Shown here in pieces: positions 41,776 to 64,000 of a stretch of DNA of 64,000 bases. Source of the stretch: Eubacteriaceae bacterium CHKCI004 (lineage in GTDB: Bacteria > Bacillota > Clostridia > Lachnospirales > Lachnospiraceae); contig FCNR01000063.1 in NCBI GenBank assembly GCA_900016875.1, positions 186,001 through 250,000 of the forward strand, read 5' to 3'. How positions within the stretch are numbered: the first letter of the stretch is position 1; each line of letters starts with the position of its first letter. A program made the translations under genes and the position numbers. The notes beneath the pieces are model-generated. The model was not told where the DNA came from. It searched no databases and was given only the letters and a program-made list of their open reading frames with translations.

Positions 41776-42207
41776 TTATTTTTCTGCTTGTACTTCAAAA
41801 CAGTATCCGACTTCCCGGACGGATCGGATGGTAAAGGGAGCATTGGGAGCTGCCTGGTACAGTTTTTCTCGTAGATTACAGATGTGAAAGCCGATGGTGT
41901 TGTTTTCACTACCAGACGGGCAATCTCCCCAAACCTTCTCATAAATCTGATTATAAGTAAGTACATGCCCCTTGTTGGCTGCAAGCAATAGAAGGATTTC
42001 GTATTCCTTCGCGGTGAGCTGAATCTCTTGGCGATTACGAAAAACTTTCCGCTTGCTTGGATAGATCTCCAGACCAGGGAGGGATAGCATCGGCTCCCTG
42101 GCCAATTCGTATGTTTCTATCTCCGGATGGCATTTCAGGATGGAAAGAATCTCATCGAATGCTTCAGAGTCTTGTTCTGACAATTCTAAGATGATTACTC
42201 GTCCGAT
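41776..42207 (-). CDS. PhoB-type winged-helix protein, copy 1
   Basis: A protein of about 143 residues. The C-terminal 95 residues are an OmpR/PhoB winged helix (LTAKEYEILLLLAANKGHVLTYNQIYEKVWG, IRSVREVGYCFEV). The first part has no receiver-domain phosphorylation site. The start is unusual. AGGAGG lies 7 nt before an ATC codon at 42207, and the paralogue at 55200 has the same arrangement. The first ordinary start is a TTG at 42183 without a ribosome site. It is last in the ABC-DtxR operon and overlaps the DtxR stop. Confidence 0.8.
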   Translation of the reverse strand: MGRVIILELSEQDSEAFDEILSILKCHPEIETYELAREPMLSLPGLEIYPSKRKVFRNRQEIQLTAKEYEILLLLAANKGHVLTYNQIYEKVWGDCPSGSENNTIGFHICNLREKLYQAAPNAPFTIRSVREVGYCFEVQAEK

Positions 42208-42587
42208 GGTACCACCTCCTGGTTGTTGCTTTCAGAAGACTTTTTAAGGCGTTCAAAACTTTCTGTGCTGATAACATGTTCTATTCGACAAGCATCGGCC
42301 TCTGCTGTTTTAGGATCTACCCCTAATGCTATAAGTCGTTCTGTAAAGAAACAGTGACGCTCATAAATTTGTTCCGCAACCTCACGGCCCACATCAGTCA
42401 AATGGAGAAAGTGATTTTCGTCCATTGTGAGAAAACCCCCTTCTTTTAGTGTATTGACCGCAACACATACGCTGGGTTTTGACACCTCCATGTGTCGGGC
42501 TACATCTACGGAGCGCACCATGCCCATCTTCTTGTGGAGAATAAGGATAGCCTCCAGATAGTCCTCCCCGGACGCATGAAGTTTCAT
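42195..42587 (-). CDS. DtxR-type metal-dependent regulator, copy 1
   Basis: A 130-residue protein. It has a winged helix (SVDVARHMEVSKPSVCVAVNTLKEGGFL) and a dimerisation domain with the metal motif DACRIEHV. Its Cys-x-x-Glu-His matches the iron-type site of DtxR/IdeR (Cys102, Glu105, His106) rather than the manganese type. The SH3-like third domain is absent. Iron-bound members repress uptake genes. AAGGGAGG precedes ATG 42587, 11 bp after the ABC gene. Confidence 0.9.
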   Translation of the reverse strand: MKLHASGEDYLEAILILHKKMGMVRSVDVARHMEVSKPSVCVAVNTLKEGGFLTMDENHFLHLTDVGREVAEQIYERHCFFTERLIALGVDPKTAEADACRIEHVISTESFERLKKSSESNNQEVVPSDE

Positions 42588-42598
42588 TAGAACCTCCC

Positions 42599-44347
42599 TT
42601 ACTGTATCCGCCAGCCCTCGGCTTGTTCGCGGATTTGGATAAACTTTTTGTAAGTACCTTCCTGTTGCAACAGTTCCTTATGTGTACCTCTCTGAGCCAC
42701 AGTTCCGCCATCAATCACAAGGATTTGGTCGGCGTTCTCAATCGTGGCCAGGCGATGAGCAATCGTAATAATGGTCTTGCCATGTGTCAGGGCAGAAATA
42801 GCTTCTTGGATCAAATGCTCATTCTCAGGGTCAATGCTTGCTGTTGCCTCATCCAAGATAACAATGGGAGCATCCTTGAGCATCGCCCTGGCGATAGAAA
42901 TTCTTTGCTTTTCACCGCCGGAAAGCGAAGATCCCCCTTCACCAATCACCGTGTCATATCCGTCTGGCAAAGCCATTATGAAGTCATGGCAGCGGGCCGC
43001 TTTTGCGGCGGCGACAATCTGCTCATCCGTAGCGTCCGGGCTGCCGAATTTAATGTTATTTTTGATGGTATCCCGGAACAAATAGACATTCTGAAAAACC
43101 ATGCTGATATTTTTGAGCAGACTATCGCAGGTAAATCTGCGAATATCCGTTCCACCAATGGTAATCGTTCCGCTGTTGACATCGTAAAAACAGGCAATCA
43201 GGTTACACAGTGTAGATTTTCCGCTGCCAGATGGCCCCACGATGGCCGTTGTGCTATTCTGCGGAATTTTGAAGTTCAGGTCATGCAGAACAATCCGGCT
43301 GTCATATCCGAAAGAAACATCCCTAAACTCAATATCATAGGATACCGGTTTTATGTCGGTGCCGTCCCGGTCGATATAGTTTACATTCTCCAACGCTTCC
43401 AGCTTATTCATGGCAGAGTCCACAACTCCAAGCATATGGGCCGCGTCATTGATATTCTCCACGCTGCCGAACATCACAAAAGAGAACAGGACAAACATCA
43501 GGAAGAACGCCATACTCATTTGTCCCTGCAATGCCTGCCATGCACAAATAAAGACAATTCCCATCGAAGCCAGTTTCAAGGCAAACAAATGCAGACAGTT
43601 AAAGGGAGTAAAGCCTTTTTCTACCTTGATATGAATATCTTTCAGGTCTTTACTGGCATTACGAAAGTTCTCGATAGAGGCTCCTTCCTGTCCAAAAGAC
43701 TTTACAATGGAAAGCCCCCGGATGTATTCAATCGCTGCGCCGGACATATCCTCCATTGCTTTATGGGTTGTTGCAGCGGTTTTTTCACTGTGTCTGCTGA
43801 TCCCCTGCAAAGCCAGCGCCGAAAGAGCAACGCCGACAATGGAAATAACCGCAGCAACGGGGCTGAAGAAGAGCAGGCATAAAACGATGGCAATAAACTT
43901 TGCGTATCCATTGATGATGACATCCACCATTTTCATACCCTGTAATTCCAAAGTAGACAATTCCGTGGTAACACCTGCCAGAATGTCACCCACACTGTTC
44001 TGCGAAAAGTACCCAAGGGGAACCCGTTTCAGTACATCGCCCAGATGAATACGCTGTCCGGCGGCCACTTCATATCCAATGCTTTCCTGCAATACTGCCC
44101 GGAGATAAGAAAGCAGGAAGTTCAGTGCAATCGAGCCAATAATGATCCCCAGCATTTGCCAGATTAAAACAGTATCAATCGCAGTATTCGTCCAGTATGC
44201 CTGGATTGCTTTATCCAGTGCGAATGCGGCTGCCATTGTAGGAATAGCAGTAGACAAACTGCTGAAAAAGGAACACACAGAACCAAGATAGAGGCGGCCT
44301 TTATATTTACCAGCCCATCGGATAATGCGTTTCATTGACTTAAACAT
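42599..44347 (-). CDS. Exporter-fold ABC half-transporter, cassette 1 (second of pair)
   Basis: A 582-residue protein with six membrane helices (1-310) and an ATPase domain (Walker A GPSGSGKSTLC, signature SLSGGEKQR, Walker B VILDEATASID, IAHRLAT). The start at 44347 follows AGGAGGTGGGTG, and the gene overlaps its partner by 8 bp. The pair, next to DtxR and AraC genes and ECF components, has the architecture of YbtP/YbtQ and IrtA/IrtB, which import iron-siderophores despite the exporter fold. Drug export is the alternative. Confidence 0.88.
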   Translation of the reverse strand: MFKSMKRIIRWAGKYKGRLYLGSVCSFFSSLSTAIPTMAAAFALDKAIQAYWTNTAIDTVLIWQMLGIIIGSIALNFLLSYLRAVLQESIGYEVAAGQRIHLGDVLKRVPLGYFSQNSVGDILAGVTTELSTLELQGMKMVDVIINGYAKFIAIVLCLLFFSPVAAVISIVGVALSALALQGISRHSEKTAATTHKAMEDMSGAAIEYIRGLSIVKSFGQEGASIENFRNASKDLKDIHIKVEKGFTPFNCLHLFALKLASMGIVFICAWQALQGQMSMAFFLMFVLFSFVMFGSVENINDAAHMLGVVDSAMNKLEALENVNYIDRDGTDIKPVSYDIEFRDVSFGYDSRIVLHDLNFKIPQNSTTAIVGPSGSGKSTLCNLIACFYDVNSGTITIGGTDIRRFTCDSLLKNISMVFQNVYLFRDTIKNNIKFGSPDATDEQIVAAAKAARCHDFIMALPDGYDTVIGEGGSSLSGGEKQRISIARAMLKDAPIVILDEATASIDPENEHLIQEAISALTHGKTIITIAHRLATIENADQILVIDGGTVAQRGTHKELLQQEGTYKKFIQIREQAEGWRIQ

Positions 44348-46121
44348 TGACACCCACCTCCTTTTTCTCGCCCACAGACCAGTTCTTTGCACCAATATGT
44401 GCCTGCCACATATCCGCATAAAGCGGGCAGCGTTCCAGGAGTTCCTCCTGCTTTCCGCAATCAACAATCTGTCCTTTCTTCAAAACGACAATCTGATCTG
44501 CGTTTTGAATGGTAGACAGACGGTGTGCAATCACCAGCAGGGTTTTTCCTTTGGAAAGGGCCATGATGGATTTCTGGATTTTATCTTCATTCTGCGGGTC
44601 AGTGAAGGCAGTTGCCTCGTCCAAAATCACAATAGGCGCATTTTTCAGGATTGCTCTCGCAATAGCAATTCGTTGCTTTTCTCCGCCGGAGAGCCGCTTG
44701 CCAGCGTCACCGGCCGGGGTATCATATCCTTTTTCCAGTCGAACAATGAAATCATCACAGCAGGCCGCTTTTGCGGCGGCATATACTTCCTCATCCGTAG
44801 CATTTGGATTACCCAGGCGGATGTTCTCTTTGAGAGAGCAGTTGAACAGGAAATTGTCCTGTGTCACGAAACTGACCAATTCGGAAAGCTGCCGGATGGA
44901 AAGTTCCTTGATATTCGTGCCGCCGATGGAGATGCTGCCGCCGGTCACATCCCAAAACCGGGCAATCAGCCGGGCAACGGTGGACTTGCCCCCGCCGGAT
45001 GGTCCAACCAGGGCTGTAAAACTTCCCTGCGGCATTTTCAGGCTGATGTCATGCAACACTTCGTTTTGCCCGGTGCCATCATAGGAGAAAGACACATCCT
45101 GTAAAACAATATCTGTGTGCCTGATCGGAACAGTTTTACCAGAGTCCAGCAATACAGGCAGGTTCAGAAGTTCATTTGCAGCTTCTACTGCATACTCCAT
45201 TGACTTTGCCTCGTTGATAAAAGTAGTAGCTTTCATCAGCGGGCCGACAATACTCAGCGAAAGAATAATTCCCATCGCCAATTCAGCAGGCGTGATACTC
45301 CCGCTCTGCGTCAGCAGCAAACCGATAGGAAGTACCCCCAACAGGGTGGTGGGCATAATCGCCATCATCAGGTTCATTGTTTTCCAGGTGCTTTTGAACC
45401 ACGCCAGAGTAAAATCCTTAAAGGACTTTACCGCTCCCACGAACTTCTCATAGGAACTGGTGCTTTGATTGAACGCCTTAACAACCTCAATGCCCTCTAC
45501 ATACTCAATAATGACATTGTTTACATGATTGTTTGCCTCCATATAAGCTGCGTACTGGCTGTTATAGTTCCGCATGAGAAAGAACATGGGGATCATAGAC
45601 AGAACCGGGGCGATCAGGACTGCAAGGCCCAAACGCCAGTCAATCGCCAACATCCAGATAAAAATAGCAACCGGAAGGAGCAGGTTCGATGTCAGCTCCG
45701 GGATCATGTGGGCCAGAGGCGGCTCCAAATCCTCTACCTTATCCATGATAATATTCTTCAAATAACCGATCCTTCGTCCCATTACTTCGCCAAGGGGCGC
45801 CCTCATCAGACGGTTTGCGATTTTCAGGCGAATGCCTTCCAGTATCGTGTAAGCGGAGATATGTGCCAAAATTGTGGAAATGCCAAAGCAGATGACACGG
45901 ATCAGGTATCCGCCTACTCCTACCAGACACCAGAGCATGATATTGTTCAAAGTAGCGGTCCGGTTAATGAACAGGAGTAAAATTTCATACACCGCCCAAA
46001 ACGGAACAAAGCCTCCGGCAACACTTAAAATGGCACACAAAACCGAGAGGGTCATTTTCCCTTTGCAGGGACCTGCAAAAGAGAAAAGCGTTTTGACCCA
46101 ATGCTCTTTTTGCTGCTTCAT
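44340..46121 (-). CDS. Exporter-fold ABC half-transporter, cassette 1 (first of pair)
   Basis: A 593-residue six-helix plus ATPase protein (Walker A GPSGGGKSTVA, signature RLSGGEKQR, Walker B VILDEATAFTD, IAHRLST). It starts the second operon of the cassette, after the AraC terminator and a variant GTTAA-N6-CTAAC palindrome. GAGAGGTGA precedes the ATG. It should form a heterodimer with the next gene's product. Confidence 0.88.
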   Translation of the reverse strand: MKQQKEHWVKTLFSFAGPCKGKMTLSVLCAILSVAGGFVPFWAVYEILLLFINRTATLNNIMLWCLVGVGGYLIRVICFGISTILAHISAYTILEGIRLKIANRLMRAPLGEVMGRRIGYLKNIIMDKVEDLEPPLAHMIPELTSNLLLPVAIFIWMLAIDWRLGLAVLIAPVLSMIPMFFLMRNYNSQYAAYMEANNHVNNVIIEYVEGIEVVKAFNQSTSSYEKFVGAVKSFKDFTLAWFKSTWKTMNLMMAIMPTTLLGVLPIGLLLTQSGSITPAELAMGIILSLSIVGPLMKATTFINEAKSMEYAVEAANELLNLPVLLDSGKTVPIRHTDIVLQDVSFSYDGTGQNEVLHDISLKMPQGSFTALVGPSGGGKSTVARLIARFWDVTGGSISIGGTNIKELSIRQLSELVSFVTQDNFLFNCSLKENIRLGNPNATDEEVYAAAKAACCDDFIVRLEKGYDTPAGDAGKRLSGGEKQRIAIARAILKNAPIVILDEATAFTDPQNEDKIQKSIMALSKGKTLLVIAHRLSTIQNADQIVVLKKGQIVDCGKQEELLERCPLYADMWQAHIGAKNWSVGEKKEVGVNV

Positions 46122-46157
46122 ATCAATTCACCTCTCTCGATCAATTTAGCCAGCAAA

Positions 46158-46192
46158 GAAAAAAGGATGGTTAATCTTCGCTAACCATCCTT
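46158..46192 (-). terminator. Terminator after AraC copy 1
   Basis: On the minus strand AAGGATGGTTA and TAACCATCCTT pair with a short loop, followed by TTTTTTC. The stem contains the variant operator at 46170-46185. Confidence 0.8.
46170..46185. promoter_or_regulatory. Operator variant, copy f
   Basis: GTTAA-tcttcg-CTAAC, one mismatch from the palindrome found in front of five other operons, 49 bp before the ABC start. It coincides with the terminator stem, so the match may be partly due to the hairpin. Confidence 0.45.
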
Positions 46193-46215
46193 AATGCTAT
46201 CACAATTTAATTTTT

Positions 46216-46245
46216 CTTTCCGCTCCACACGGCCTTTTTTATTCC
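46216..46245 (-). promoter_or_regulatory. 30-bp repeat, site 1 (candidate AraC site)
   Basis: It is nearly identical to 50016-50046 (shared TTTCCGCTCCA and CGGCCTTTTTTATTCC on the plus strand). It sits upstream of the ABC pair. A -10-like TAGCAT (46199-46194) lies 20 nt past its GCGG core, the same distance as in the second site. Confidence 0.55.
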
Positions 46246-46247
46246 AA

Positions 46248-47207
46248 TCAGATAATTGATTTTCGATATTCCAACGGCGTTTTCCCCATTGTCTGGTGAA
46301 ATGCGGATGCGAATTTGCTGGGACTGTCATATCCCACAAGTCCCGCAATCTCCGCCACCTTCAGCGACCTATCTGATTTCAGTAAAGAGGCAGCATAGTT
46401 CATGCGATAGTTTCTCATATATGTAAAAATCGGGCTGCCATATACCGATTTGAAACAGTTTTTCATGGGGGTCAGGGCAATATCAAACCGCGCGGAGAGT
46501 TCTTCCAGAGTATAGTTTTTTGTCAAATCCTGCGTCAGAAGTGCCTGGATCGCTTTGATTTTCTCAACCTGGCCTTTATAAAAATAGGGGCGTTCTTCTG
46601 TATGGCCTGAAAGTTCCAGCGCATCCAGATACAGCAGCAGCTCCAATACTTTGATCTTGAAATAGTCCTTTTTGATTTTGACCGGCACATTGTAGAGTTC
46701 GGAAAAAATATGCTCAATGGCCGGTTCTCCTGGAATGACATAAGGTGTACGGTCGCTGCAATACTTTTTCTGCAATTCATAAAGATCCACAGAAAAGCCT
46801 TTCATAGAGACTGGGATTTCCTTTGCCGCAGTCTCCATCTGAAAGCCAATGGAAATGCCGTGGTAGTGAGAAAGTGGAAATTCCACCTTGCCGGAATGAT
46901 GGATGCGGCGATCCACTCGAAGATCGCCAGCCTCCAAATAGCTAAAGGCATTTTGACCGACCTCCTGCTCAATGCGCCCTTCCCGGCAGTGGTCGATACA
47001 AAGCAGGTCCATATCTGTCTGGAAGCCCGAAACGCACTCCTTCATGTGGAAATCATTATACATGAGAAATACACCGGGAAAGACATGATAGAGCGTCATC
47101 ATGCCTTCGCCGGAGTTATCGCTTAAACGCATGACCTTGCAATCATCGGACTCGACCAGGTTTTGAACATTGGGGCCGTAGTACATTTCCCGGAACAGTT
47201 CCGGCAT
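46248..47207 (-). CDS. AraC-family regulator, copy 1
   Basis: A 319-residue protein. The C-terminal 100 residues contain the two AraC helix-turn-helix motifs (YTLEELSARFDIALTPMKNCFKSVYG, KVAEIAGLVGYDSPSKFASAFHQTMGKTPLEYR). The N-terminal 220 residues are a ligand domain of the kind found with siderophore loci (PchR/YbtA-like position). ATG 47207 is chosen because AAAGGAGG lies upstream. It is the last gene of the ECF operon and likely activates the operons in the presence of the loaded metallophore (inference). Confidence 0.88.
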   Translation of the reverse strand: MPELFREMYYGPNVQNLVESDDCKVMRLSDNSGEGMMTLYHVFPGVFLMYNDFHMKECVSGFQTDMDLLCIDHCREGRIEQEVGQNAFSYLEAGDLRVDRRIHHSGKVEFPLSHYHGISIGFQMETAAKEIPVSMKGFSVDLYELQKKYCSDRTPYVIPGEPAIEHIFSELYNVPVKIKKDYFKIKVLELLLYLDALELSGHTEERPYFYKGQVEKIKAIQALLTQDLTKNYTLEELSARFDIALTPMKNCFKSVYGSPIFTYMRNYRMNYAASLLKSDRSLKVAEIAGLVGYDSPSKFASAFHQTMGKTPLEYRKSII

Positions 47208-47212
47208 AGACG

Positions 47213-48616
47213 CTACCTCCTTTCTTTGGAGCATCCCTCCATATCAAATATTTTATCACAAGTCCGGCCCAAAAACTCAAAATCATGGGAAACAATGATG
47301 ATAACTTTATTTTCATCATTCAACTTGCGGATCATGTTGCTCACTTCCAGCATACGATGATAGTCCAGCCCACTGGTAGGCTCGTCAAAGACAAGCACAT
47401 CCTTGTCGGAGAGAATAGCGGTTGCCACCGCAAGGCGCTGCTTCTGGCCTCCTGACAGGGCCATCGGATGACGGTCTTTGAAATCCAGCAAATCAAAAGA
47501 CCTGAGAATTTCTTCAATCCGCTCCGGCGGACAATCCGGCTGCGCCAGTTCACATTCGTTCCATACGCTGTCTGAAAAAAGCTGATGGTTCACATCCTGC
47601 ATAACACAAAAGCTGGCCTTATTACGCTGTTTTGCTTTCAGTGTTTGCCCGTCCAGCCGGACTGTTCCATTCACTTCTTTCAAAAGCCCGCACAGGCAGC
47701 GCGTCATCGTCGTTTTTCCCGCGCCGTTATGACCGACAATCCCCAACACTTCGCCCCGTTTTGCAGAAAAGCCAAGACCGCTGAATACCGGCTGATTATC
47801 AAAGGCACAGGAAAGATTTTCTACAGACAAGCCTTCATGCGCCCCTTGCGGATCAGCGGGAGGTAACTCCAGTACAGGATGGACAAGACTTCTAAGCCCC
47901 ATCTTGATACGCTGCTCATCCGAAAGATTGCGAAACTCATCTCTTGAAAAAGTCTGAACAATTTTTCCTTTTTGAATGAAGATCGCCCGGTCAATCAGGT
48001 CCATCAGAAAATATAGACGGTGTTCGGCAATAACAACCGTCCGTCCTTCTTTTTTGATCTGAATAATCTGCTGGCGTAAAGTGTCAATCGCGTCGGCATC
48101 CAGATTTGCTGTCGGCTCGTCCAGCACAAAAACGGACGGGTTCATGGCATATACAGAGGCAAACGCAAGACTTTGTTTTTCCCCTCCAGACATGGAAAAA
48201 ATGTTTCTTCCCAAAAGCGATTTAATTTTTAAGGCGGAAACAGTGGCATCATATCGCTCTTTGATTTTACTTGGTTCGACACCCGCATTTTCCAGGCCAA
48301 AAGTGATCTCGCTGTCCGAGTCAATATTGAAAAACTGAGATTTCGGATTTTGGAACACAGAGCCAACCTGCTCTGCCAGCCGATACATTTCTGTTTTCGG
48401 TACTTCCATACCGTTTACAATCGTTGTACCGGATAAAGTGCCGCCCTCGACAAAATGAGGAATTAAGCCGTTAATCAGTTTTGTCACTGTTGTTTTGCCA
48501 CAGCCCGACTCCCCCGTAAGGACAACACATTCTCCCTGTTGGATATTTAGGTCAATATGGGAAAGCGTTCCCTGCTCTTTCTCATATTCAAACGATACAT
48601 CCTGAATTTGGATCAC
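47213..48616 (-). CDS. ECF double ATPase, copy 1
   Basis: A 467-residue protein with two fused ABC ATPase domains. The first has GESGCGKTTVTKL, MSGGEKQS and VFVLDEPTANLD. The second has GHNGAGKTTMTRC, LSGGQKQR and VLVFDEPTSGLD. It is the EcfA-A' unit of an energy-coupling-factor transporter. GTG 48616 has AGGAGG 8 nt upstream; the GTG at 48625 overlaps the ribosome site itself. Confidence 0.92.
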   Translation of the reverse strand: MIQIQDVSFEYEKEQGTLSHIDLNIQQGECVVLTGESGCGKTTVTKLINGLIPHFVEGGTLSGTTIVNGMEVPKTEMYRLAEQVGSVFQNPKSQFFNIDSDSEITFGLENAGVEPSKIKERYDATVSALKIKSLLGRNIFSMSGGEKQSLAFASVYAMNPSVFVLDEPTANLDADAIDTLRQQIIQIKKEGRTVVIAEHRLYFLMDLIDRAIFIQKGKIVQTFSRDEFRNLSDEQRIKMGLRSLVHPVLELPPADPQGAHEGLSVENLSCAFDNQPVFSGLGFSAKRGEVLGIVGHNGAGKTTMTRCLCGLLKEVNGTVRLDGQTLKAKQRNKASFCVMQDVNHQLFSDSVWNECELAQPDCPPERIEEILRSFDLLDFKDRHPMALSGGQKQRLAVATAILSDKDVLVFDEPTSGLDYHRMLEVSNMIRKLNDENKVIIIVSHDFEFLGRTCDKIFDMEGCSKERR

Positions 48617-48629
48617 ATGGAACACCTCC

Positions 48630-49316
48630 TTATCCCACTGTAATTGAAATCACACAGAAAACCACACCTGCCGCCAGACATAAAAAGTCCTGCACGCCGA
48701 ACTTCATTTCAATCATGCTTGTCTTTGGCGCAGGATTTTCAATGCCCCGCGTAACAGCGGCTGCGGACAATTCTTCCGCTGTCGTTGTTGCAGAAATCAT
48801 GGTCGGCACCAACAAGCACTCAATTTTTTGTACCCCATGAATATTACGGAGCTTCATGGCATCCCGGATATAGCCGGTTTCTTCTTTTAAGGCCGGAAAA
48901 TACCGGACGGTTACAGACAAAGGAATAATCAATCCCTGCGGGATATGCCATTTCCGAAGCGCAACCATCAATTCCCGGACGGGCGTTTTCTGTAAAACCA
49001 TCGTACCGACAATCAAACAAGGGAAAATCTTTCTTGCATAAGATACAATGATCGTGAAGCTGCTGGCTAAAATTTTCGGCCCGTTTGGGAATACATAGTA
49101 TTGCAGCGCCAGACAAATCCCAAATGCGATTGCCAGTTTGCCTGCGGATTTTTGGCACCCGCAGGCAACGATCAGCAGGAGCAGAAAAACAACCCATGTA
49201 ATTTCAACCCATACGGAGTGCTGGGTAAAGGCCACAATATTTGCCAGCACCAACAAAAGCAATTCCGTCCGTGGATCGAACCTTAATGTATGTTTTTTGC
49301 CCTCCCCATTCATCAC
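48630..49316 (-). CDS. ECF transmembrane (T) component, copy 1
   Basis: A 228-residue CbiQ/EcfT-type protein with about five membrane helices. The coupling-helix region AAAVTRGIENPAP corresponds to the Ala-Arg-Gly motifs that contact the ATPases. The start overlaps the S-component stop by 4 bp (ATGA). Confidence 0.9.
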   Translation of the reverse strand: MMNGEGKKHTLRFDPRTELLLLVLANIVAFTQHSVWVEITWVVFLLLLIVACGCQKSAGKLAIAFGICLALQYYVFPNGPKILASSFTIIVSYARKIFPCLIVGTMVLQKTPVRELMVALRKWHIPQGLIIPLSVTVRYFPALKEETGYIRDAMKLRNIHGVQKIECLLVPTMISATTTAEELSAAAVTRGIENPAPKTSMIEMKFGVQDFLCLAAGVVFCVISITVG

Positions 49317-49918: not shown

Positions 49919-49936
49919 TGAACATTCCTCCTTTTA

Positions 49937-55615: not shown

Positions 55616-57364
55616 TCAGGCAATACTCCAACCCTCTGCCTGCTCACGGATTGTAATGAAACGGTGATAAAGTCCTTCCTGCTGAACAAGCTGCTGATGT
55701 GTTCCTTTCTGAACAACTTGACCTTTATCCACCACTAAAATCTGGTCAGCGTGTTCAATCGTCGCCAGACGGTGGGCGATAACGATAACCGTTTTTCCAA
55801 TGGTCAATTCACTGATTGCCTGCTGGATCAGATGCTCATTTTCGGGGTCAATACTTGCTGTTGCTTCATCAAGAATGACAATGTTGGCATTTTTCAAAAT
55901 GGCGCGGGCAATAGAAATGCGCTGTTTTTCTCCGCCAGACAGCGTAGAGCCGCCCTCACCGATCACCGTTTCATATCCATCGGGAAGAGCCATAATGAAG
56001 TCGTGGCACCGAGCCTTTTTCGCAGCTTCTATAATTTCTTCCTGCGTTGCACTTGGATTGCCGAAACGGATGTTGTTTTCAATGGTATCGTGGAACAGGT
56101 AGACCTTTTGAAAGACCATCGAGATATTGCGGAGCAAACTGTCACAGGTCATGTTCCGCACATCCTCACCGCCTACTGTGACCTTGCCGCTGTCCACATC
56201 ATAGAAACGGGCAATCAGGTTGCAAATCGTGGTCTTGCCGCTGCCAGATGGCCCTACAATGGCCGTAGTGCTGCCCTGGGGGATGGAAAAGCTGATATTC
56301 CGCAAAACGGGAACTTTATCGTAGGAGAATGTCACATCACGGAAAGCAATGTCTGTGTTCTGCAAAGAAATATCTTTCCCGTCTTTGTCTATAATGTCAG
56401 CGTGTTCAATGCCGTCCAGTTTATCCAGCGTAGCATCAATAACCTCCAATACATGGGCGGCGTTGTTCATGGCTTCCACACTTCCAAAGATCATAAAGGA
56501 GAACATATCCAGCATGAGCATGGTAGGAAGTTCCATACTGCCGTTATAGGTCAGCCAAGCGGCCACAGCTACAATGGCAATGGAGGCGGCCTTCAGCGAA
56601 AACAGGTGCAGGCAGTTGAAGGGCATATATTCCACTTCAATTTTGATGTTGATTTTCTTGCTGTCGTTGTATGCTTTGCGGATACCGGCAATAGATACGC
56701 CTTCCTGCTTAAAGGCTTTCACCACCTGCATCCCTCGCAGATACTCGATGGAACTTTCCACCATATCATCCTGTGCCTTTTGATGGATAGGCGCGTTTTG
56801 GTGGCTGCGCGCCTCCAGCAGATGAAGAAACAGGGCTGACAGAAGGACACCAGCCAGAGCAATTCCTCCCGCCAGAGGGCTATAAAATGCAAGGAACAAT
56901 ATCAGGACGATAACGGTGATATAGCCATTAACAACGGTGTTGACCATATTCATGGTGAACATTTCCATAAACGAGAGGTCGGTTGTGGCCGCTGCGGACA
57001 GTTCTCCCATATTATTCTTACTGAAAAAGCCCAGCGATACCCGCTTCAAAATGTCTCCCAGCCGTATTCTCTCGTCAGCGGTTGCTTCATAACCGACACT
57101 TTCCTGCGTGATGGCTCGGAGATATGAGAACAGGTATCGGCCCAATACAGCTAAAATCATGGCCCCCAGCATGATCCAGATGTCCCGGCCCTCCAATGGT
57201 TTAACGCCACCCCAGTCATCCAGAACAGCACTTAATCCATTCGCGGCCAGCATAATAGGGATTGCGGTAAAAATGCTGTGGATGAAAGCGTAGATAAACC
57301 CGATGTAAATACGCCGTTTATATTTCCCTGTCCATTGGATCAGTCGATTTACAATCCGAAACAT
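55616..57364 (-). CDS. Exporter-fold ABC half-transporter, cassette 3 (second of pair)
   Basis: A 582-residue protein of exactly the same length as its cassette-1 paralogue. Walker A is GPSGSGKTTIC, the signature TLSGGEKQR, Walker B VILDEATASID. The start 57364 (MFRIVNRLIQW) follows AAAGGAGG, 1 bp after the partner's stop. Confidence 0.88.
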   Translation of the reverse strand: MFRIVNRLIQWTGKYKRRIYIGFIYAFIHSIFTAIPIMLAANGLSAVLDDWGGVKPLEGRDIWIMLGAMILAVLGRYLFSYLRAITQESVGYEATADERIRLGDILKRVSLGFFSKNNMGELSAAATTDLSFMEMFTMNMVNTVVNGYITVIVLILFLAFYSPLAGGIALAGVLLSALFLHLLEARSHQNAPIHQKAQDDMVESSIEYLRGMQVVKAFKQEGVSIAGIRKAYNDSKKINIKIEVEYMPFNCLHLFSLKAASIAIVAVAAWLTYNGSMELPTMLMLDMFSFMIFGSVEAMNNAAHVLEVIDATLDKLDGIEHADIIDKDGKDISLQNTDIAFRDVTFSYDKVPVLRNISFSIPQGSTTAIVGPSGSGKTTICNLIARFYDVDSGKVTVGGEDVRNMTCDSLLRNISMVFQKVYLFHDTIENNIRFGNPSATQEEIIEAAKKARCHDFIMALPDGYETVIGEGGSTLSGGEKQRISIARAILKNANIVILDEATASIDPENEHLIQQAISELTIGKTVIVIAHRLATIEHADQILVVDKGQVVQKGTHQQLVQQEGLYHRFITIREQAEGWSIA

Positions 57365-57365
57365 A

Positions 57366-59132
57366 TCAGTTACCTCCTTTCCCGGAACCGGCAGACCAGT
57401 TCTGCGCTCCGATATGCGCCTCCCACATATCCCGATAGAGAGAGTCGCCATCTAAAAGCTGCTGATGAGTACCTGTGTTCTCAACCTGCCCGTTTTGCAG
57501 GACAATAATCTGATCGGCATTTTTGATGGTGGACAGACGATGTGCAATGACCAGCAGCGTTTTCCCTTTTGTCAAAGCAGCGATAGACTGCTGGATTTTT
57601 TCTTCGTTCTCCTGATCGGTGAACGCGGTTGCCTCGTCCAAAATCACGATGGGGGCATTTTTCAAAATCATGCGGGCAATAGAAATGCGCTGTTTTTCAC
57701 CGCCTGAAAGCCGGTTCCCTGCATCCCCGGCCATCGTGTCATAGCCATTGTCCAATTTCTGTATAAATTCATCACAGCAGGCGGCTTTTGCTGCCGCATA
57801 TACTTCTTCGTCCGTAGCATCAGGGTTTCCCAGCCGGATATTTTCCTTGATGGAGCAGTTAAACAGGAAGTTATCCTGTGTAACAAAGCTGACAATATCG
57901 GCAAGCTGGGCCAGCGGCATACTGCGAATGTCCACACCGCCAATGGTGATCTTTCCATCGTTCACATCCCAAAAACGGGCAATCAAGCGGGCGATGGTGG
58001 ACTTGCCTCCACCGGACGGGCCGACGAGCGCCGTAAACTTTCCCTCAGGGATTTTCAGATTGATATGGGAGAGCACCTGCTTACCGCTTTCTTTATCATA
58101 AGAGAACGAAACATCCTGAAGTTGAATGTCTTTGGACTGCACCTCCACTGATTTTCCAGTATCGGGCAGTTCTTCCACATGGAGCAACTCGTCCACGTCG
58201 TGGACGGCGTATTCAATCGCCTTCGTCTCATTGATGTAAGTAGTAAAGTTCATCAGCGGGCCTACAATACCCAGCGAGAGGATTAGGCACATTGCAAGGT
58301 CCTGCGGCGTAAGGCTACCGTTCCAGTAGAGATACATACCAATCGGGAGCGTTCCCAAAAAGGTGGACGGTAGCACAGCAGCAACAAAGTTCATCACTTT
58401 CCAGGAACTTTGATACCATTTGAGGGTGTAGTCTTTGAAGGACTCTACCGCCTTGGTGAACTTTTCGTAAGAACTGGAGGACTGATTGAACGCCTTGATA
58501 ACTTCGATACCCTCCACATACTCCACGATCACGCCGTTCACATAGTTGTTGGACTCCATGTAATCAGCATAGAGCTTGTTAAAATTCTTCATCATCATAG
58601 CAAAAGCAATCAGAACGAAAGGCAGCGTGACCAGCATCGCCAGCGCCATGCGCCAGTCGATGCAAACTAGATAAACAAAGACTGCCACGGGGAGCAGCAG
58701 GTTGGAGATACACTCCGGGATCATGTGGGCCAGCGGCAGCTCAATCGTTTCCACCCGATCTACCAATACATTTTTCAGTTTACCCACAGACTCTCCGATG
58801 ACTGTCCCCAGCGGTGCTTTCATCAGCCGCTGGGCAAGAGCCAAACGAATATTCTCCAAAATGGTATATGCGGATATGTGGGACAGGCTCGTTGAAATAC
58901 CATAGAGCAAGAAGCGTATCGCATAAGCGCCAAGTCCAATCCAGCACCATCTCCAAACCTCTGCCATCACAGGTGAGCCGCCGATAAAGAGCGTGATAAT
59001 CTGGTAAACACTCCAATAGGGTATCAGTCCGGCAACCACACTGATGATCGCACATAAGACGGACAGGACAATCTTGCCCCGGCACTGTGAAGCAAAGGAA
59101 AACACAATAGAAATCCAGCTTTTTTGCTTCAT
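57366..59132 (-). CDS. Exporter-fold ABC half-transporter, cassette 3 (first of pair)
   Basis: A 588-residue protein. Walker A is GPSGGGKSTIA, the signature RLSGGEKQR, Walker B VILDEATAFTD. The second of two close ATGs (59132) is preferred, because AAAGGAGG lies 7 nt upstream. Unlike cassette 1, no GTTAG palindrome is seen before this operon. Confidence 0.88.
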   Translation of the reverse strand: MKQKSWISIVFSFASQCRGKIVLSVLCAIISVVAGLIPYWSVYQIITLFIGGSPVMAEVWRWCWIGLGAYAIRFLLYGISTSLSHISAYTILENIRLALAQRLMKAPLGTVIGESVGKLKNVLVDRVETIELPLAHMIPECISNLLLPVAVFVYLVCIDWRMALAMLVTLPFVLIAFAMMMKNFNKLYADYMESNNYVNGVIVEYVEGIEVIKAFNQSSSSYEKFTKAVESFKDYTLKWYQSSWKVMNFVAAVLPSTFLGTLPIGMYLYWNGSLTPQDLAMCLILSLGIVGPLMNFTTYINETKAIEYAVHDVDELLHVEELPDTGKSVEVQSKDIQLQDVSFSYDKESGKQVLSHINLKIPEGKFTALVGPSGGGKSTIARLIARFWDVNDGKITIGGVDIRSMPLAQLADIVSFVTQDNFLFNCSIKENIRLGNPDATDEEVYAAAKAACCDEFIQKLDNGYDTMAGDAGNRLSGGEKQRISIARMILKNAPIVILDEATAFTDQENEEKIQQSIAALTKGKTLLVIAHRLSTIKNADQIIVLQNGQVENTGTHQQLLDGDSLYRDMWEAHIGAQNWSAGSGKGGN

Positions 59133-59150
59133 TTCCATTCCTCCTTTAGC

Positions 59151-59188
59151 AAAATAATAGAGAGCATCAATCGACTTGATACTCTCTA
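59151..59188 (-). terminator. Terminator after AraC copy 2
   Basis: On the minus strand TAGAGAG-T-ATCAA pairs with TTGAT-G-CTCTCTA, followed by TTATTTT. Confidence 0.75.
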
Positions 59189-59243
59189 AGTATTGCAGAT
59201 ATTCATGTTGTCCGCCACTCTGCCCGGGCGGGTTTTACTCCAT

Positions 59244-60200
59244 TTAGATTTTAACTTTTCGATATTCCAGCGGCGTTTTTCCTTTTACCTTCTTGAATGC
59301 TTCGGAAAATTTGCTGGTATTCGTATAACCGACTTTTCCGGCAATCATCGTAATCGGTTCATCTGTCTGTGTCAAAAGAGAAGCTGCCAGGTCCATACGA
59401 TAATTTCGCATATAGGTATAAATGGCGGAGCCATACACGCCCTTAAAGCACTGCTTCAGAGCAGAAGTGGAAATATCGAACTTTTCAGAAAGCTCCTCCA
59501 TTGTGAAATGGTGCTCCGGCTCATTTGTCATAAACGACATGATAGCCTTGACTTTCTCTACCTGCGTTTTATAAAAATAGGGACGTTCCACACCTAAGAC
59601 CGTAGGGTCTACCGTCCTGAGCGTGACCAACAGTTCTAACACCTTTACCCTGAGATATTCCAGACGGATATTTTCCGGCACCTGGTACAGTTCCGAAATC
59701 ACATGGTCGGGAACGGAATTTCCGTGCATAATGAAAGGTCGAATCTTTAAGGTGAATTGCTGCTCGATTTGCTCCAGGTCAATGGAAAACAGGGACAGGA
59801 GATCCCCCAATCCCTCTACCGCTTCAGGAACAGAGATCGTAATTGTGATCCCGTGGTAATGGCTTACGGGAAAGCTGCAATGGTTGTTTTCCGTGGCAGA
59901 ACTGTCCAGCATAATATCGCCGGACGCAAGATAAAGATAAGCGCCATTGCTGACTTCCCACTCGACGCGGCCTTCTCTGCAATGGTGAATTGCAAAAGTG
60001 TGCGTATTTTGTTCAAACTTCCTTGACGGGCAGTGCTCCATGTGAAAATCATTATACATGACACCTATTCCGGGATATACTTCATAATAGGTTGCAGTTC
60101 CGTCTCCTGTTTCATTTTTCATTTGGTAGACCGAGCAGGATTCATCCCGGCAGAGCAAATTCATATTTTGCTGCGAGAAAAACAGGTCGCTTCTGTTCAA
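59244..60200 (-). CDS. AraC-family regulator, copy 2
   Basis: A 318-residue protein of the same architecture as copy 1 (N-terminal YNDFHMEHC and HHCREGRVEWEV; C-terminal FTMEELSEKFDISTSALKQCFKGVYG, ITMIAGKVGYTNTSKFSEAFKKVKGKTPLEYR). It begins at TTG 60200 with GAGGTGA upstream, 8 bp after the ECF ATPase gene. The divergence in the ligand domain suggests a different inducer. Confidence 0.88.
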   Translation of the reverse strand: MNRSDLFFSQQNMNLLCRDESCSVYQMKNETGDGTATYYEVYPGIGVMYNDFHMEHCPSRKFEQNTHTFAIHHCREGRVEWEVSNGAYLYLASGDIMLDSSATENNHCSFPVSHYHGITITISVPEAVEGLGDLLSLFSIDLEQIEQQFTLKIRPFIMHGNSVPDHVISELYQVPENIRLEYLRVKVLELLVTLRTVDPTVLGVERPYFYKTQVEKVKAIMSFMTNEPEHHFTMEELSEKFDISTSALKQCFKGVYGSAIYTYMRNYRMDLAASLLTQTDEPITMIAGKVGYTNTSKFSEAFKKVKGKTPLEYRKVKI

Positions 60201-60207
60201 ACTGAAA

Positions 60208-61671
60208 TCACCTCGATTCTATAAAAAAATTTTGGAGGCGCTGGAGCCCTGCGGCATCCAGTGCATATTGTTCCTGTACCATACCATGCTCCAAATGCAG
60301 AACATGAGTACAGCAACTGACGATCAGCTCATAATCATGGGTGATGACAAGAGATGTCTTTCCCATTTTCTGTATCGTCACAAGTTCATCAGCCACTTCT
60401 TTCATGTGCTGTAAATCCAGACCGCTGGTAGGTTCATCCAGCACTAAAATCTTACGCTCGGAAACAAGAGCGGTGGCAATCGCCACCCGCTGCTTCTGAC
60501 CGCCGGAGAGCGCCATCGGGTGCCGCTCCTTAAACTGTAACAAATCCAATCGGTCAAGAACTGCATCCGCCTTATCGGTAGCCGGTTCCGCCATGCTAAT
60601 GAGCATTTCTTCCTCTGTGCTTTCCGTAAACAACTGATGGTTAACATCCTGCATGACCATATAGCACAGGGACAGCCTTTGCTTTCTATTATACGGTTTT
60701 TCATCTATTTTCACAATGCATTTGCAATGCTTCTCCAATCCGCAGAGGCAACGGGCCAAGGTGGATTTTCCGGCTCCGTTATGACCGATCACTGCGATAA
60801 TGCCCGCCTGTGGCAGCGAAAGACTGTCAATATCCAGCGCATCCCTCTGCTTTGTATAAGCAAAATGAAAGTTCTCACATTCGATAGAACCACTGCTTGC
60901 AACAGGATGTGCTGTCACAGGGAACGCACCCAGGTCAAAAGGCCGCAGCCCCATTTCTGCCTGTTGCGTCACGGACAGTTTAAGTGCATCCAGAGCCGAG
61001 TAATCTTTTTCAATTTTCCCATCTTTTAGATACACAACACGGTCTATCAATTCTTTCAGATAATAGAGCCGATGTTCCGCAATAATAACTGTTTTCCCCT
61101 GCTGTTTCCAGATCTGGATCATCCGGCGTAGATCTTTTGTGGCTGACATATCCAGATTAGAAGATGGTTCGTCCAGAACGATGATGGGCGGATTACTGGC
61201 TGACACAGAGGCACAAGCAATTTTCTGCTTTTCTCCGCCGGAAAGAGAAAAGATATTTTTCCCCAGCAGATTGTCCATATCAAACTGCTCCGCAGTTGAT
61301 TTCACCCGCCGAATGATTTCTTCTTCAGGCAAACCCTGATTTTCACATCCAAAGGCCAGTTCGCTGGTAGAGTCCACCGTAAAAAACTGCGTGCGGGGAT
61401 TTTGAAAAACGCTCCCCACATATTTCGCTGTTTCATAGAGTGGAAGCCTGCTGATGTTCTTGCCATCCAGCAGGACTTCGCCGCTTAACTCGCCCTCATA
61501 ATAATTCGGAATCAGCCCATTCACCAACCGGGCCAGGGTTGTTTTTCCGCAGCCAGATTGCCCACACAAAAGGATAACTTGCCCGTCCGGGATGATTAAG
61601 TCAATGTTTACAAGCCCACCGGCATCCGTTCCCCCAGCATATCGAAAATTGATATTGCGAAGTTCAATCAT
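60208..61671 (-). CDS. ECF double ATPase, copy 2
   Basis: A 487-residue two-domain ATPase. The first domain has GQSGCGKTTLARL, LSGGEKQK and IIVLDEPSSNLD. The second has GHNGAGKSTLARC, LSGGQKQR and ILVLDEPTSGLD. The start is ATG 61671 (MIELRNINF), with AGGAGGAAGAAG upstream; the longer frame runs back into the T gene. Confidence 0.92.
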   Translation of the reverse strand: MIELRNINFRYAGGTDAGGLVNIDLIIPDGQVILLCGQSGCGKTTLARLVNGLIPNYYEGELSGEVLLDGKNISRLPLYETAKYVGSVFQNPRTQFFTVDSTSELAFGCENQGLPEEEIIRRVKSTAEQFDMDNLLGKNIFSLSGGEKQKIACASVSASNPPIIVLDEPSSNLDMSATKDLRRMIQIWKQQGKTVIIAEHRLYYLKELIDRVVYLKDGKIEKDYSALDALKLSVTQQAEMGLRPFDLGAFPVTAHPVASSGSIECENFHFAYTKQRDALDIDSLSLPQAGIIAVIGHNGAGKSTLARCLCGLEKHCKCIVKIDEKPYNRKQRLSLCYMVMQDVNHQLFTESTEEEMLISMAEPATDKADAVLDRLDLLQFKERHPMALSGGQKQRVAIATALVSERKILVLDEPTSGLDLQHMKEVADELVTIQKMGKTSLVITHDYELIVSCCTHVLHLEHGMVQEQYALDAAGLQRLQNFFIESR

Positions 61672-61684
61672 AGACTTCTTCCTC

Positions 61685-62407
61685 CTAACAAATAAAGAAA
61701 CCGACCCAACAGGGTATCGCCAGCAGGAAGAAAAAAACATCCAAAGGTCCAAACCCAATTTTACAAATATTTGTCCGTTTCTGCGGCGCTCCAAGCCCTC
61801 GCGTGAGAGCCGCCGCAGACAGTTCTTCTCCGATCTTGGCAATCGACATCATCAGAGGAACCACCCGGTATTCCAGCATCTTCATGGGACTGCGGAGAGT
61901 AGTGATGCCGCGCATCTTCATGGCATCCCGTATAGCCGCATATTCCTCTTTTACCGTCGGGAAGAAACGAAACACCACGGACACGGGGATTACTATTTTC
62001 TCGGGAACATGCATCCGCTCCATAGCTGCGACAAATTCGCTAACGGTTGTAGTGCTTACCAGATAATATCCCATAATAAATCCGGGAAGCATGTGCGTAT
62101 AAATCCCAACTGCGGCTCCCAGGATAAAATTCCATGTACCAGTGAGCAGCGGCAATACCGTTAATTCCAACGCAAACAAAATAGCGTATGTAACTGCAAA
62201 TCTGGCTGCGGCCACCCATTTCCTTGAAAGAAGTAAAAAAATGATGGGGCAAGCCATTAGACACGGACGGACAAAATTCATAAACCCGCCAGTGCCGCCG
62301 GTAATCATAATGGTGCTGACTGTAACAGTCAAAAACAGTTTTGTCCTCGGATCGGTGGGAATAACAGCTTTGCTTTCAAATTTTAGCGTTGTAACCGCCG
62401 CATCCAT
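61685..62407 (-). CDS. ECF transmembrane (T) component, copy 2
   Basis: A 240-residue CbiQ/EcfT-type membrane protein with coupling motif AAALTRGLGAPQ. Its ATG shares one base with the S-gene stop (TGATG). Confidence 0.9.
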   Translation of the reverse strand: MDAAVTTLKFESKAVIPTDPRTKLFLTVTVSTIMITGGTGGFMNFVRPCLMACPIIFLLLSRKWVAAARFAVTYAILFALELTVLPLLTGTWNFILGAAVGIYTHMLPGFIMGYYLVSTTTVSEFVAAMERMHVPEKIVIPVSVVFRFFPTVKEEYAAIRDAMKMRGITTLRSPMKMLEYRVVPLMMSIAKIGEELSAAALTRGLGAPQKRTNICKIGFGPLDVFFFLLAIPCWVGFFIC

Positions 62408-62997
62408 CAGGCAATCCCTGCCTTTTCAAAATGCTTCTTCAACACAGCTTTACCAAGAAGCGCCCCCAAAATGCCACCGATAAAGGTTACAACGAATAAA
62501 ACAGGGAACATCCAATTTGGGGTGTAGGACATAAGCGTATCTACATATTCCTGTCCATAACTACTTACAAGCGAAGCAAAGAACTCTGTGCGGGTGAGGA
62601 ACATCCGGCTCACATAACCCATGATCCAAAGGGAAAACACACCATTGGCAAGGAATGTGCATTTCCAACTTTGATATTTTCCGGCTCTTAAAATCAAATC
62701 GCTTGCAATGCCAAAAATAATCCCAGCAACCAGCACCAAAATTCCGCTACCCATGATCAAATTCAGTAAGCCAAGGATAATGCCGGTCAGTGATACCATG
62801 CCAAACTTCTTAACCTTTGTTAAGTACAGCATAAAGGGAATACCGCACAGGATGGGGCACACCAGTCCAAGCAACGGGATAAAGATAGGGATATATCCCA
62901 GCATCATACCCGCAAAGAAAATGACAAAATAGATGGCGGTGAAAATGCCCACATTGATAAGGTCTTTTGCTTGTAGCTTTTTGCTTTTTGTTTCCAT
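62407..62997 (-). CDS. ECF substrate-binding (S) component, MptD/Trep_Strep type, copy 2
   Basis: A 196-residue six-helix protein (LQAKDLINVGIFTAIYFVIFF ... GALLGKAVLKKHFEKAG). It is clearly related to copy 1 at the ends and different in the middle helices, where the substrate is bound. This suggests a related but not identical ligand. Ribosome site GGAGGTATG lies before the ATG. Confidence 0.88.
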   Translation of the reverse strand: METKSKKLQAKDLINVGIFTAIYFVIFFAGMMLGYIPIFIPLLGLVCPILCGIPFMLYLTKVKKFGMVSLTGIILGLLNLIMGSGILVLVAGIIFGIASDLILRAGKYQSWKCTFLANGVFSLWIMGYVSRMFLTRTEFFASLVSSYGQEYVDTLMSYTPNWMFPVLFVVTFIGGILGALLGKAVLKKHFEKAGIA

Positions 62998-63017
62998 TTA
63001 CACATACCTCCAGAGAA

Positions 63018-63033
63018 GTTAGCAAAAACTAAC
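63018..63033. promoter_or_regulatory. GTTAG-N6-CTAAC operator, copy e
   Basis: GTTAG-caaaaa-CTAAC, 20 bp before the ECF S start of cassette 3. The rest of the 382-bp gap 62998-63379 has a possible -10 (TATAGT on the minus strand near 63084), a 9-mer AGAGTGGCG at 63110-63102 also found before the cassette-3 ABC pair (59221-59213), and no gene. Confidence 0.72.
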
Positions 63034-63336
63034 CTATTGTGATTAAAAATGGCGAAGCAGAATTTCGCACAATCAGATTCTACTATAATCTAAACAGGCT
63101 ACGCCACTCTAAATAGATTGAAAATACTCCAAATGGTTTTTGATTTTCATATGTAATGTAAAAGAGCTGTAGCAACTTACAAATCATTATGATTTTTCGG
63201 GTTTATTAAAAAAACGTCTCCTGAACCGTGTTTTTCAATCCGTTATTTTTCTATAGACTTTTCCAAAAGGATAATGCCACTCGTTCTTTATTGTGGTCAG
63301 TATGGACTAATAAGTTCAGGAGAATTTCTACATAAA

Positions 63337-63379
63337 CAAAACTCGCAGCTTAGAGTAATTAAACTCTTTCCCGCGAGTT
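63337..63379 (-). terminator. Terminator after small HTH copy 2
   Basis: On the minus strand ACTCGC and GCGAGT pair around an inner AGAGT/ACTCT stem and end in a T run. Counterpart of 54471-54513. Confidence 0.75.
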
Positions 63380-63544
63380 TCATTCCTTCTTTTCTTCTGG
63401 TGGCACAAATTCCAGCAGATCACCAATCTCACAATTCAGTACAGTACATAAGCGTGCGAGAACATCTATATCCAATCGAGTGATTTTGTTCCTGCAGTAG
63501 TTGTTGCTCTGCGTTCGCTGCATCTCTGCCCGGTGGCTCAACAT
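63380..63544 (-). CDS. Small XRE-like HTH protein, copy 2 (possibly truncated)
   Basis: A 54-residue frame nearly identical to 54515-54685 (LARLCTVLNCEIGDLLEFVPPEE), with its own terminator behind it. Same lack of a ribosome site. Confidence 0.55.
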   Translation of the reverse strand: MLSHRAEMQRTQSNNYCRNKITRLDIDVLARLCTVLNCEIGDLLEFVPPEEKKE

Positions 63545-63582
63545 ATTATCGAAAGATACAAGTCGAATATAAATTATGAAGA

Positions 63583-63623
63583 ATAGAAAAGAAGAACAGC
63601 AGCCTGAGTTGGATCAGACTGCT
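63583..63623 (-). terminator. Terminator after winged-helix copy 3
   Basis: Third occurrence of the AGCAG/CTGCT hairpin with T/C-rich tail. Confidence 0.72.
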
Positions 63624-63628
63624 GACTC

Positions 63629-64000
63629 TTATTTTTCTGCTTGTACTTCAAAACAGTATCCGACTTCCCGAACGGATCGGATGGTAAATGGAGCATTGGG
63701 AGCTGCCTGGTACAGCTTTTCCCGAAGGTTGCAGATGTGAAAGCCGATAGTGTTGCTCTCACAGCCAGAGGGAATATCTCCCCATACCTTCTCGTAGATT
63801 TGGCTGTATGTAAGCACATGTCCCTTGTTGGCCGCAAGCAATAGAAGTATCTCGTATTCCTTTGCGGTGAGCTGAATTTCTTGGCGATCACGAAAAACTT
63901 TTCGTTTGCTTGGATAGATCTCAAGACCAGGGAGGGATAGCATCGGCTCCCTGGTCAGCTCATATTTTTCTATCTCTGAATGGCTTTGCAGGATGTCGAG
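63629..64000 (-). CDS. PhoB-type winged-helix protein, copy 3 (5' partial)
   Basis: It is open to the window edge. It carries the same domain as copies 1 and 2 (LTAKEYEILLLLAANKGHVLTYSQIYEKVWG). Nineteen codons before the first Met (DILQSHSEIEKYELTREP) still match the paralogues, so the gene starts outside. It shows that a further DtxR/ABC cassette probably follows. Confidence 0.85.
   Translation of the reverse strand, partial: LDILQSHSEIEKYELTREPMLSLPGLEIYPSKRKVFRDRQEIQLTAKEYEILLLLAANKGHVLTYSQIYEKVWGDIPSGCESNTIGFHICNLREKLYQAAPNAPFTIRSVREVGYCFEVQAEK

Follow-up and report, generated by a model that had tools for sequence, protein, structure and literature searches.

We analysed a 64,000-nucleotide stretch of the Eubacteriaceae bacterium CHKCI004 genome (contig FCNR01000063.1; hereafter the window, whose coordinates are used throughout) and found that the region from ~30.6 to 63.0 kb probably constitutes a single mobile, iron-repressed metallophore-uptake island of the equibactin type that has been transferred horizontally. 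A first-pass annotation, made from the sequence alone, had placed two stacked metallophore-uptake cassettes on a mobilisable island in the part beginning at 41,776. The set of genes headed by a shared operator reaches farther left than that interval, to 30.66 kb.

The open reading frame (ORF) list and Pfam scans bore out the two cassettes. Cassette A (41776-49918) and cassette B (54769-62997), both on the minus strand, have an identical gene order: the S, T and AA' components of an energy-coupling factor (ECF) transporter, an AraC regulator, two ATP-binding cassette (ABC) proteins designated ABC1 and ABC2, a DtxR-family regulator and a winged-helix protein. Cassette A comprises S (49313-49918), T (48630-49316), AA' (47213-48625), AraC (46248-47234), ABC1 (44340-46121) and ABC2 (42599-44467), both fused permease-ATPases, the DtxR-family regulator (42195-42587) and the winged helix (Trans_reg_C; 41776-42183). 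The corresponding genes of cassette B lie at 62407-62997, 61685-62407, 60208-61842, 59244-60200, 57366-59138, 55616-57451, 55212-55631 and 54769-55083. Both S components belong to the Trep_Strep/MptD family (PF09605), both T components are CbiQ proteins, and the AA' proteins are double ATPases with two ABC_tran stretches each; the adjoining S, T and double-ATPase genes thus identify an ECF transporter with a dedicated module in either cassette. The modelled fold of the cassette B S component agrees with solved S components, and both DtxR-family regulators contain the N- and C-terminal iron-repressor domains. Hairpins resembling terminators separate AraC from ABC1 at 46192-46163 in cassette A and 59188-59158 in cassette B, where the first-pass annotation had drawn a terminator; a scan for such hairpins returned 31 sites against 19.2 expected, and single sites are therefore weak.

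The TetR/ABC pair noted earlier between the cassettes is a TetR-ABC1-ABC2 unit, unit M (50165-54402, minus strand), consisting of TetR (53773-54402), ABC1 (51910-53694) and ABC2 (50165-51988). Its ABC1 is 56% identical to an ABC protein within another ECF cassette of the same genome. Between cassettes A and B, protein identity was 40% for S, 33% for T, 43% for AA', 44% for AraC, 63% for ABC1, 58% for ABC2 and 45% for DtxR, so the earlier statement that every repeated gene is diverged holds from S to DtxR but fails for the winged-helix copies considered below. Nor does a further cassette begin at the right edge, as had been thought: a third winged-helix copy (63629-64000, minus strand) opens a unit that continues with MATE, TetR and S-adenosylmethionine (SAM) methyltransferase genes. 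The same genome holds four more Trep_Strep sets (L008, L009, L010). Three of them are on contig C34, with methyltransferase genes interspersed, and the fourth, on contig C25, is followed by winged-helix, methyltransferase, TetR and MATE genes, the same companions that stand to the right of cassette B.

What ties these units together is a shared operator. The palindrome GTTAG-N6-CTAAC occurs in five exact copies in the window, against 0.04 expected, and none of 100 shuffled sequences reached five. All five copies lie 19-41 bp ahead of an ORF start: the S genes of cassette A (49937-49952; 19 bp) and cassette B (63018-63033; 21 bp), ABC1 of unit M (53735-53750; 41 bp), an LCM-family methyltransferase ORF (30661-30676; 29 bp, directly after a TATAAT-like box) and a run of GNAT, ATC_hydrolase and BAAT_C genes (32189-32204; 27 bp). 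Across the whole genome we counted 12 operators and seven copies of the reversed pattern, which served as a control. Eleven operators are located 11-131 bp upstream of a correctly oriented ORF start. The twelfth, on contig C34, is 95 bp into an ABC1 ORF drawn at its maximum length; because GAAAGGAG and ATG come after it, the true start of this gene probably lies downstream of the operator. Nine of the 12 operators are in no ORF of at least 100 amino acids (aa), whereas all seven control sites are in such an ORF (six by a cruder test); the operators at 30661 and at enolase coincide with short ORFs of 107 and 125 aa that run across the promoters on the opposite strand.

Nine genomic operators form two clusters, on contigs C52 and C34, and the remaining three stand ahead of a DUF3793-flavodoxin operon, a DtxR-family gene and enolase; elsewhere the operator heads ECF, ABC, methyltransferase and hydrolase operons. 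Flavodoxin is an iron-scarcity protein, and the DUF3793-flavodoxin operon and the DtxR gene as targets are consistent with an iron regulon. The operator lies 16 bp upstream of the enolase gene (L020), a link for which no iron model accounts, and another genome (L118) has two operator copies flanked by a DUF3793 gene on one side and an enolase-like ORF on the other.

The association with S genes extends well beyond the window. A survey of 148 genomes sampled from the class detected Trep_Strep proteins (E <= 1e-15) in 16 and listed 40 places, and we examined ~1.5 kb on each side of 33 S loci, 27 from the survey and six from the present genome. An exact operator was found at 15 of the 33 loci and the exact reversed control at none, with other genomes alone contributing 10 of 27; allowing up to one mismatch, the counts were 19 and five. 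The distance from site to S start was measured at 13 of the 15 exact loci, and at 12 it fell between -7 and 118 bp. At L002 the exact operator is 1361 bp from the S start and a one-mismatch site is at 20 bp. By these counts the link holds well outside the window, though not for all members of the family.

This palindrome has a known counterpart in Streptococcus equi. According to the available part of the published account, EqbA is a DtxR-like repressor of the equibactin genes whose binding in electrophoretic mobility shift assays with Fe2+, Zn2+ or Mn2+ requires a 36-bp palindrome (PMC3672683). GTTAG-N6-CTAAC matches the core of the published EqbA operator, and the island combines this palindrome before its target genes with DtxR-family genes within the units, as in an EqbA-type regulon. 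Hairpin-forming sequences before ABC1 genes can hold such sites: the terminator-like stem at 46163-46192 contains a one-mismatch operator (46170), and a hairpin-forming sequence at L008:11564 contains an operator. EqbA's own site is likewise described as a long palindrome in the part of the paper available (PMC3672683).

The motif ACR[IL]EH is present in all five DtxR-family proteins that we compared (those of cassettes A and B, two of contig C34 and one of contig C77). When the cassette A protein, with residues D9, E12, H78, C100, E103 and H104, was aligned to MntR structures, a Cys stood at MntR Glu99 and Asp9 at MntR D8. EqbA and DtxR carry Cys at the corresponding position, by the same partial account (PMC3672683). 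The predicted metal site is mixed in character, with iron the likely, though not certain, metal.

Mobility was evident from both gene content and comparisons between genomes. To the left of cassette A, on the plus strand, lie genes for a MobL relaxase with C-terminal Sel1 repeats (35022-37970), a DUF3991/Toprim protein (37984-39414) and a type IV secretion coupling protein (T4SS-DNA_transf, TraG-D_C; 39423-41117). The C-terminal half of the relaxase has eight Sel1 repeat stretches, which to our knowledge is unusual for a relaxase. Claveliimonas bilis c-25 has collinear matches to 32149-47260 (94.8%) and 47369-64368 (97.6%), with the 108 bases between the two blocks left out of the comparison. 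Altogether ~32 kb, including the MobL gene, is 95-98% identical in C. bilis, and MobL itself is 94% identical along its length, whereas the enolase gene matches in pieces only, at 65-67%. Among seven genomes queried with MobL, a full-length copy at this identity occurred only in C. bilis; the other six gave a 128-residue piece at 94% (one), distant or partial matches (four) or none (one). Mediterraneibacter glycyrrhizinilyticus An427, with an enolase identity of 76%, matches 30444-35398 and 49828-63813 at ~98-99% and lacks the intervening stretch. Relatives 90-98% identical to cassette B ABC1 were found in Merdimonas, Eisenbergiella, Anaeromassilibacillus, Lachnoclostridium and Blautia sp. An249 records. 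The relaxase, the coupling protein and the near-identical copy in a distant host identify a mobilisable element, as the first reading had it, and support movement of the island between genera. To separate ancient from recent duplication, the annotation had called for trees; in ours, cassettes A and B group in distinct clades with good support, that of B taking in members from other families. Together, the clades and the near-identical copies point, at the level of sequence, to an ancient split between A and B and a recent spread of the island.

The three winged-helix copies, in contrast to the diverged genes, are 89-95% identical as proteins and are embedded in recent direct DNA repeats (84-92%) that lie 3' of three transport units (41735-42034, 54728-55027 and 63588-63887). 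Blocks shared with other genomes end near them: the L024 block stops at 63813, within the third copy, and the C. bilis block stops 368 bases beyond the window, inside the MATE gene. Because of these end points, the repeats may be recombination points. An additional 219-bp repeat occurs at 54532 and 63391; it matches a portion of an XRE gene (93-94% over 157 bases) that is complete in L007:3157-3507. A second recent repeat (31507-31978 and 34417-34890; 92-95%) brackets the GNAT, ATC_hydrolase and BAAT_C genes.

The first-pass annotation had suggested that uptake occurs without synthesis, and the genome-wide searches agreed with this. A single condensation-domain (PF00668) protein is encoded in the genome, an adenylation-thiolation-condensation (A-T-C) nonribosomal peptide synthetase (NRPS) at 1033-4650. 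It lies 26 kb away from the island, and no operator, whether exact or with one mismatch, was seen in its vicinity. Neither IucA/IucC (PF04183) nor a multi-domain siderophore NRPS was found in this draft assembly, and the island has no equibactin-type biosynthetic locus, that is, no siderophore NRPS with helper enzymes. A yersiniabactin-like pathway needs several cyclisation domains; with one condensation-domain protein and no IucA/IucC, no such pathway is visible. In another genome (G113; L119:2803-5796), the start of an A-T-C NRPS 23% identical to that of the window is separated from an operator by 137 bp, and an S-T-AA' set adjoins this NRPS.

As to the ligand, an indication came from a Thermacetogenium sp. 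UBA4966 metagenome-assembled genome (L044), in which the genes from S to ABC2 are 67-80% identical to those of cassette B. This relative is flanked on one side by cysE, thioesterase, phosphopantetheinyl transferase and AMP-ligase genes and on the other by an NRPS (condensation, adenylation and carrier domains and a weak thioesterase match) that runs off the contig. An operator stands ahead of the first gene of the cluster, and no DtxR gene was seen there. The embedding of this relative in an NRPS cluster supports a siderophore as the predicted ligand of cassette B. No NRPS-embedded relative of cassette A was found, and no scan of named genomes was made with that cassette.

The ABC pairs had been likened to the yersiniabactin importer YbtPQ, and we compared cassette B ABC1 and ABC2 with proteins in the PDB. 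For ABC1 the likeness stood: among single half-transporters YbtPQ scored best (323 and 292 bits), ahead of IrtA (up to 282) and Sav1866 (279), while P-glycoproteins outscored YbtPQ because two stretches match. For ABC2 it did not, since Sav1866 and MsbA were the top half-transporters and YbtPQ and IrtAB were absent among the best 60 of 591 matches. A hint at the direction of transport comes from S. equi, where we take EqbHIJ to be of the ECF type. Deletion of eqbHIJ abolished most equibactin-dependent iron accumulation, while eqbKL, which may serve product efflux, was dispensable for the iron phenotype, as far as the available text reports (PMC3672683). By analogy with these deletions we assign import to the ECF module, and for the ABC pair, which may act in either direction, the balance slightly favours efflux.

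The leftmost operators head enzyme genes on the plus strand: the LCM-family (PF04072) methyltransferase (30705-31514), followed by a GNAT acetyltransferase (32231-32884), an ATC_hydrolase-family protein (32859-33569), and an alpha/beta hydrolase (BAAT_C; 33557-34429). Next to these is the gene for a small protein without a Pfam match (34408-34917), part of which is repeated at 31507-31978. The protein at 32859-33569 matches PF14196 with an E value of 2.6e-20 and a score of 74.1 bits, where the cut-off is 28.1, placing it in the family whose name refers to L-2-amino-thiazoline-4-carboxylate hydrolase. Residues C156, C175, D178, T194 and C202 are kept in all 25 rows of the family alignment, and the structure model is confident (mean predicted local distance difference test score 90.2), with weak PDB matches. 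When 195 relatives were searched with this protein, 22 genomes gave a match. At the 30 loci used for counting, nine exact operators were present and no exact controls (12 against four with up to one mismatch). Three of the nine belong to this genome or to one near-identical site seen twice (L077 and L104), and the ATC_hydrolase proteins of the other six are only 22-30% identical. ATC_hydrolase, LCM and alpha/beta hydrolase genes are grouped near an operator in L100/L111, L106, L108 (which includes L099) and L112; ABC pairs accompany the groups in L106 and L112, and the L106 hydrolase scores slightly under the Pfam cut-off. On contig C34 an operator heads genes for an LCM protein, a membrane methyltransferase and a 172-aa protein that fits no family, and four of the 25 loci recovered by searching with cassette B ABC1 have an ATC_hydrolase gene within ~10 kb. 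Given the operator and these recurring neighbourhoods, the linked enzyme genes very likely belong to the same regulon, and their products probably process the imported molecule. In a relative (L111:1506-3602), an operator precedes an LCM-ATC_hydrolase pair directly adjoining feoB.

From these observations the following working model can be proposed. With ample iron, the DtxR-family repressors would occupy GTTAG-N6-CTAAC at each promoter and silence the island, and under iron scarcity they would release the operator. The ECF module would then import the loaded molecule, with S binding the ligand and T and AA' powering transport, and each AraC protein would probably respond to the ligand by activating the cassette that encodes it. 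The same molecule is most likely also the substrate of the ABC1-ABC2 pairs, which would either expel it once it has been stripped or modified, in line with the S. equi data, or bring it in, like YbtPQ and IrtAB. By analogy, the scavenged metallophores are most likely iron-loaded and of the thiazoline/phenolate (equibactin-yersiniabactin) type. Because no recognised synthesis genes of this type are present, the host probably lives on molecules made by others, which the methyltransferase, acetyltransferase, ATC_hydrolase-family protein and alpha/beta hydrolase would probably process. A possible, if tentative, extension is that the island serves to import, dismantle and discard thiazoline siderophores. 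The ECF transporter would bring in another organism's ferri-siderophore, the ATC_hydrolase-family protein and the alpha/beta hydrolase would open or cut it to release iron, the methyltransferases, perhaps with the acetyltransferase, would cap the freed thiol or phenol and so block iron rebinding, and an ABC pair or the MATE pump would discard the product. If true, this would amount to enzymatic iron release from yersiniabactin-like siderophores, passed among gut commensals on mobile islands.

Other explanations were weighed against iron-metallophore uptake. The CbiQ-type T components and the MntR-like D9 would also fit an island for manganese, zinc, copper or cobalt, using a metallophore for that metal or handling the free ion, and for an NRPS with an ECF importer in S. 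lugdunensis the accessible part of one report describes no iron siderophore in vitro and suggests another metal as an option (PMC12709192). We regard this as unlikely, as EqbA, which shares the operator core, acts in iron accumulation, the Cys of ACR[IL]EH is found in EqbA and DtxR alike (PMC3672683, as far as available), and the operator precedes a flavodoxin operon. Also unlikely, in our judgement, is own synthesis of a small metallophore by an unrecognised route, in which the LCM and SAM methyltransferases, ATC_hydrolase, alpha/beta hydrolases and perhaps the A-T-C NRPS would build the molecule and the ABC pairs export it. In other genomes, the operator recurs together with ATC_hydrolase, LCM, methyltransferase and hydrolase genes, which would suit such a route, as would the operator-linked A-T-C NRPS beside an S-T-AA' set in G113 and its distant similarity to that of the window. 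Yet the window's NRPS is remote from the island and has no operator near it, it is the only condensation-domain protein in the genome, and the enzyme genes that operators head in the window encode no carrier-protein or ligase domain.

Resistance commonly relies on methyltransferases, acetyltransferases and hydrolases, and these enzymes, the ABC pairs and the MATE protein could instead detoxify toxic chelators or antibiotics while the ECF transporter imports an unrelated nutrient. The preference of cassette B ABC2 for Sav1866 and MsbA within its best 60 of 591 matches and the flanking TetR-ABC and TetR-MATE units point that way. We consider this unlikely too, given that a single operator, matching the site of an iron-uptake repressor, is common to the ECF, ABC and enzyme genes and that cassette B ABC1 is nearest to YbtPQ and IrtA among single half-transporters. 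If iron-metallophore uptake is correct, gut Firmicutes gain a testable regulator site, an importer set and candidate siderophore-processing enzymes, and commensals would compete for yersiniabactin-like molecules from other gut bacteria, with the ability spreading by island transfer. The operator provides a direct handle for collecting the whole system from genomes.

No paper linking ECF transporters to siderophore uptake in Firmicutes came up in our literature search. As far as our searches show, the uptake-only stacked form, the operator-controlled enzyme genes and the recent transfer among gut genera are new, while the linkage of ECF and YbtPQ-like modules, which had been thought little explored, is not: the gene list of 023_CTn1 of Clostridioides difficile RT023, in the part of the source available, reads ABC, ABC, AraC, ABC ATPase, Ecf cobalt-type component and membrane protein (PMC6814731). 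Compared by gene list rather than by sequence, this is the island's order ABC2-ABC1-AraC-AA'-T-S, also on a mobile element, but 023_CTn1 goes on with genes for siderophore synthesis, among them one for a thiazolinyl imide reductase (PMC6814731). L044 shares the S-T-AA'-AraC-ABC1-ABC2 arrangement of cassette B and the operator, and differs by its synthesis genes and the lack of a visible DtxR gene. YbtPQ and IrtAB, which import yersiniabactin and mycobactin, resemble cassette B ABC1 by bit score, whereas the island's ABC pair is linked to an ECF importer. The equibactin locus eqbA-N on ICESe2 of S. equi, which the ECF/DtxR combination had already called to mind, has, by the available part of the paper's account, a three-gene importer (eqbHIJ), a fused ABC pair (eqbKL), the DtxR-like EqbA, the same operator core and carriage on a mobile element (PMC3672683); the likeness rests on that account and the operator match, not on direct comparison of the proteins. 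Unlike the island, the eqb locus has its own NRPS (PMC3672683, same part), and unlike eqb, the island has an AraC gene per cassette, two stacked cassettes and, in addition to their ABC pairs, a third one, and its operator also heads genes for a methyltransferase, an acetyltransferase and an ATC_hydrolase. Since a search for synthesis genes found none, the island is not an equibactin-type synthesis locus; it resembles equibactin import in its working and shares the core of its operator.

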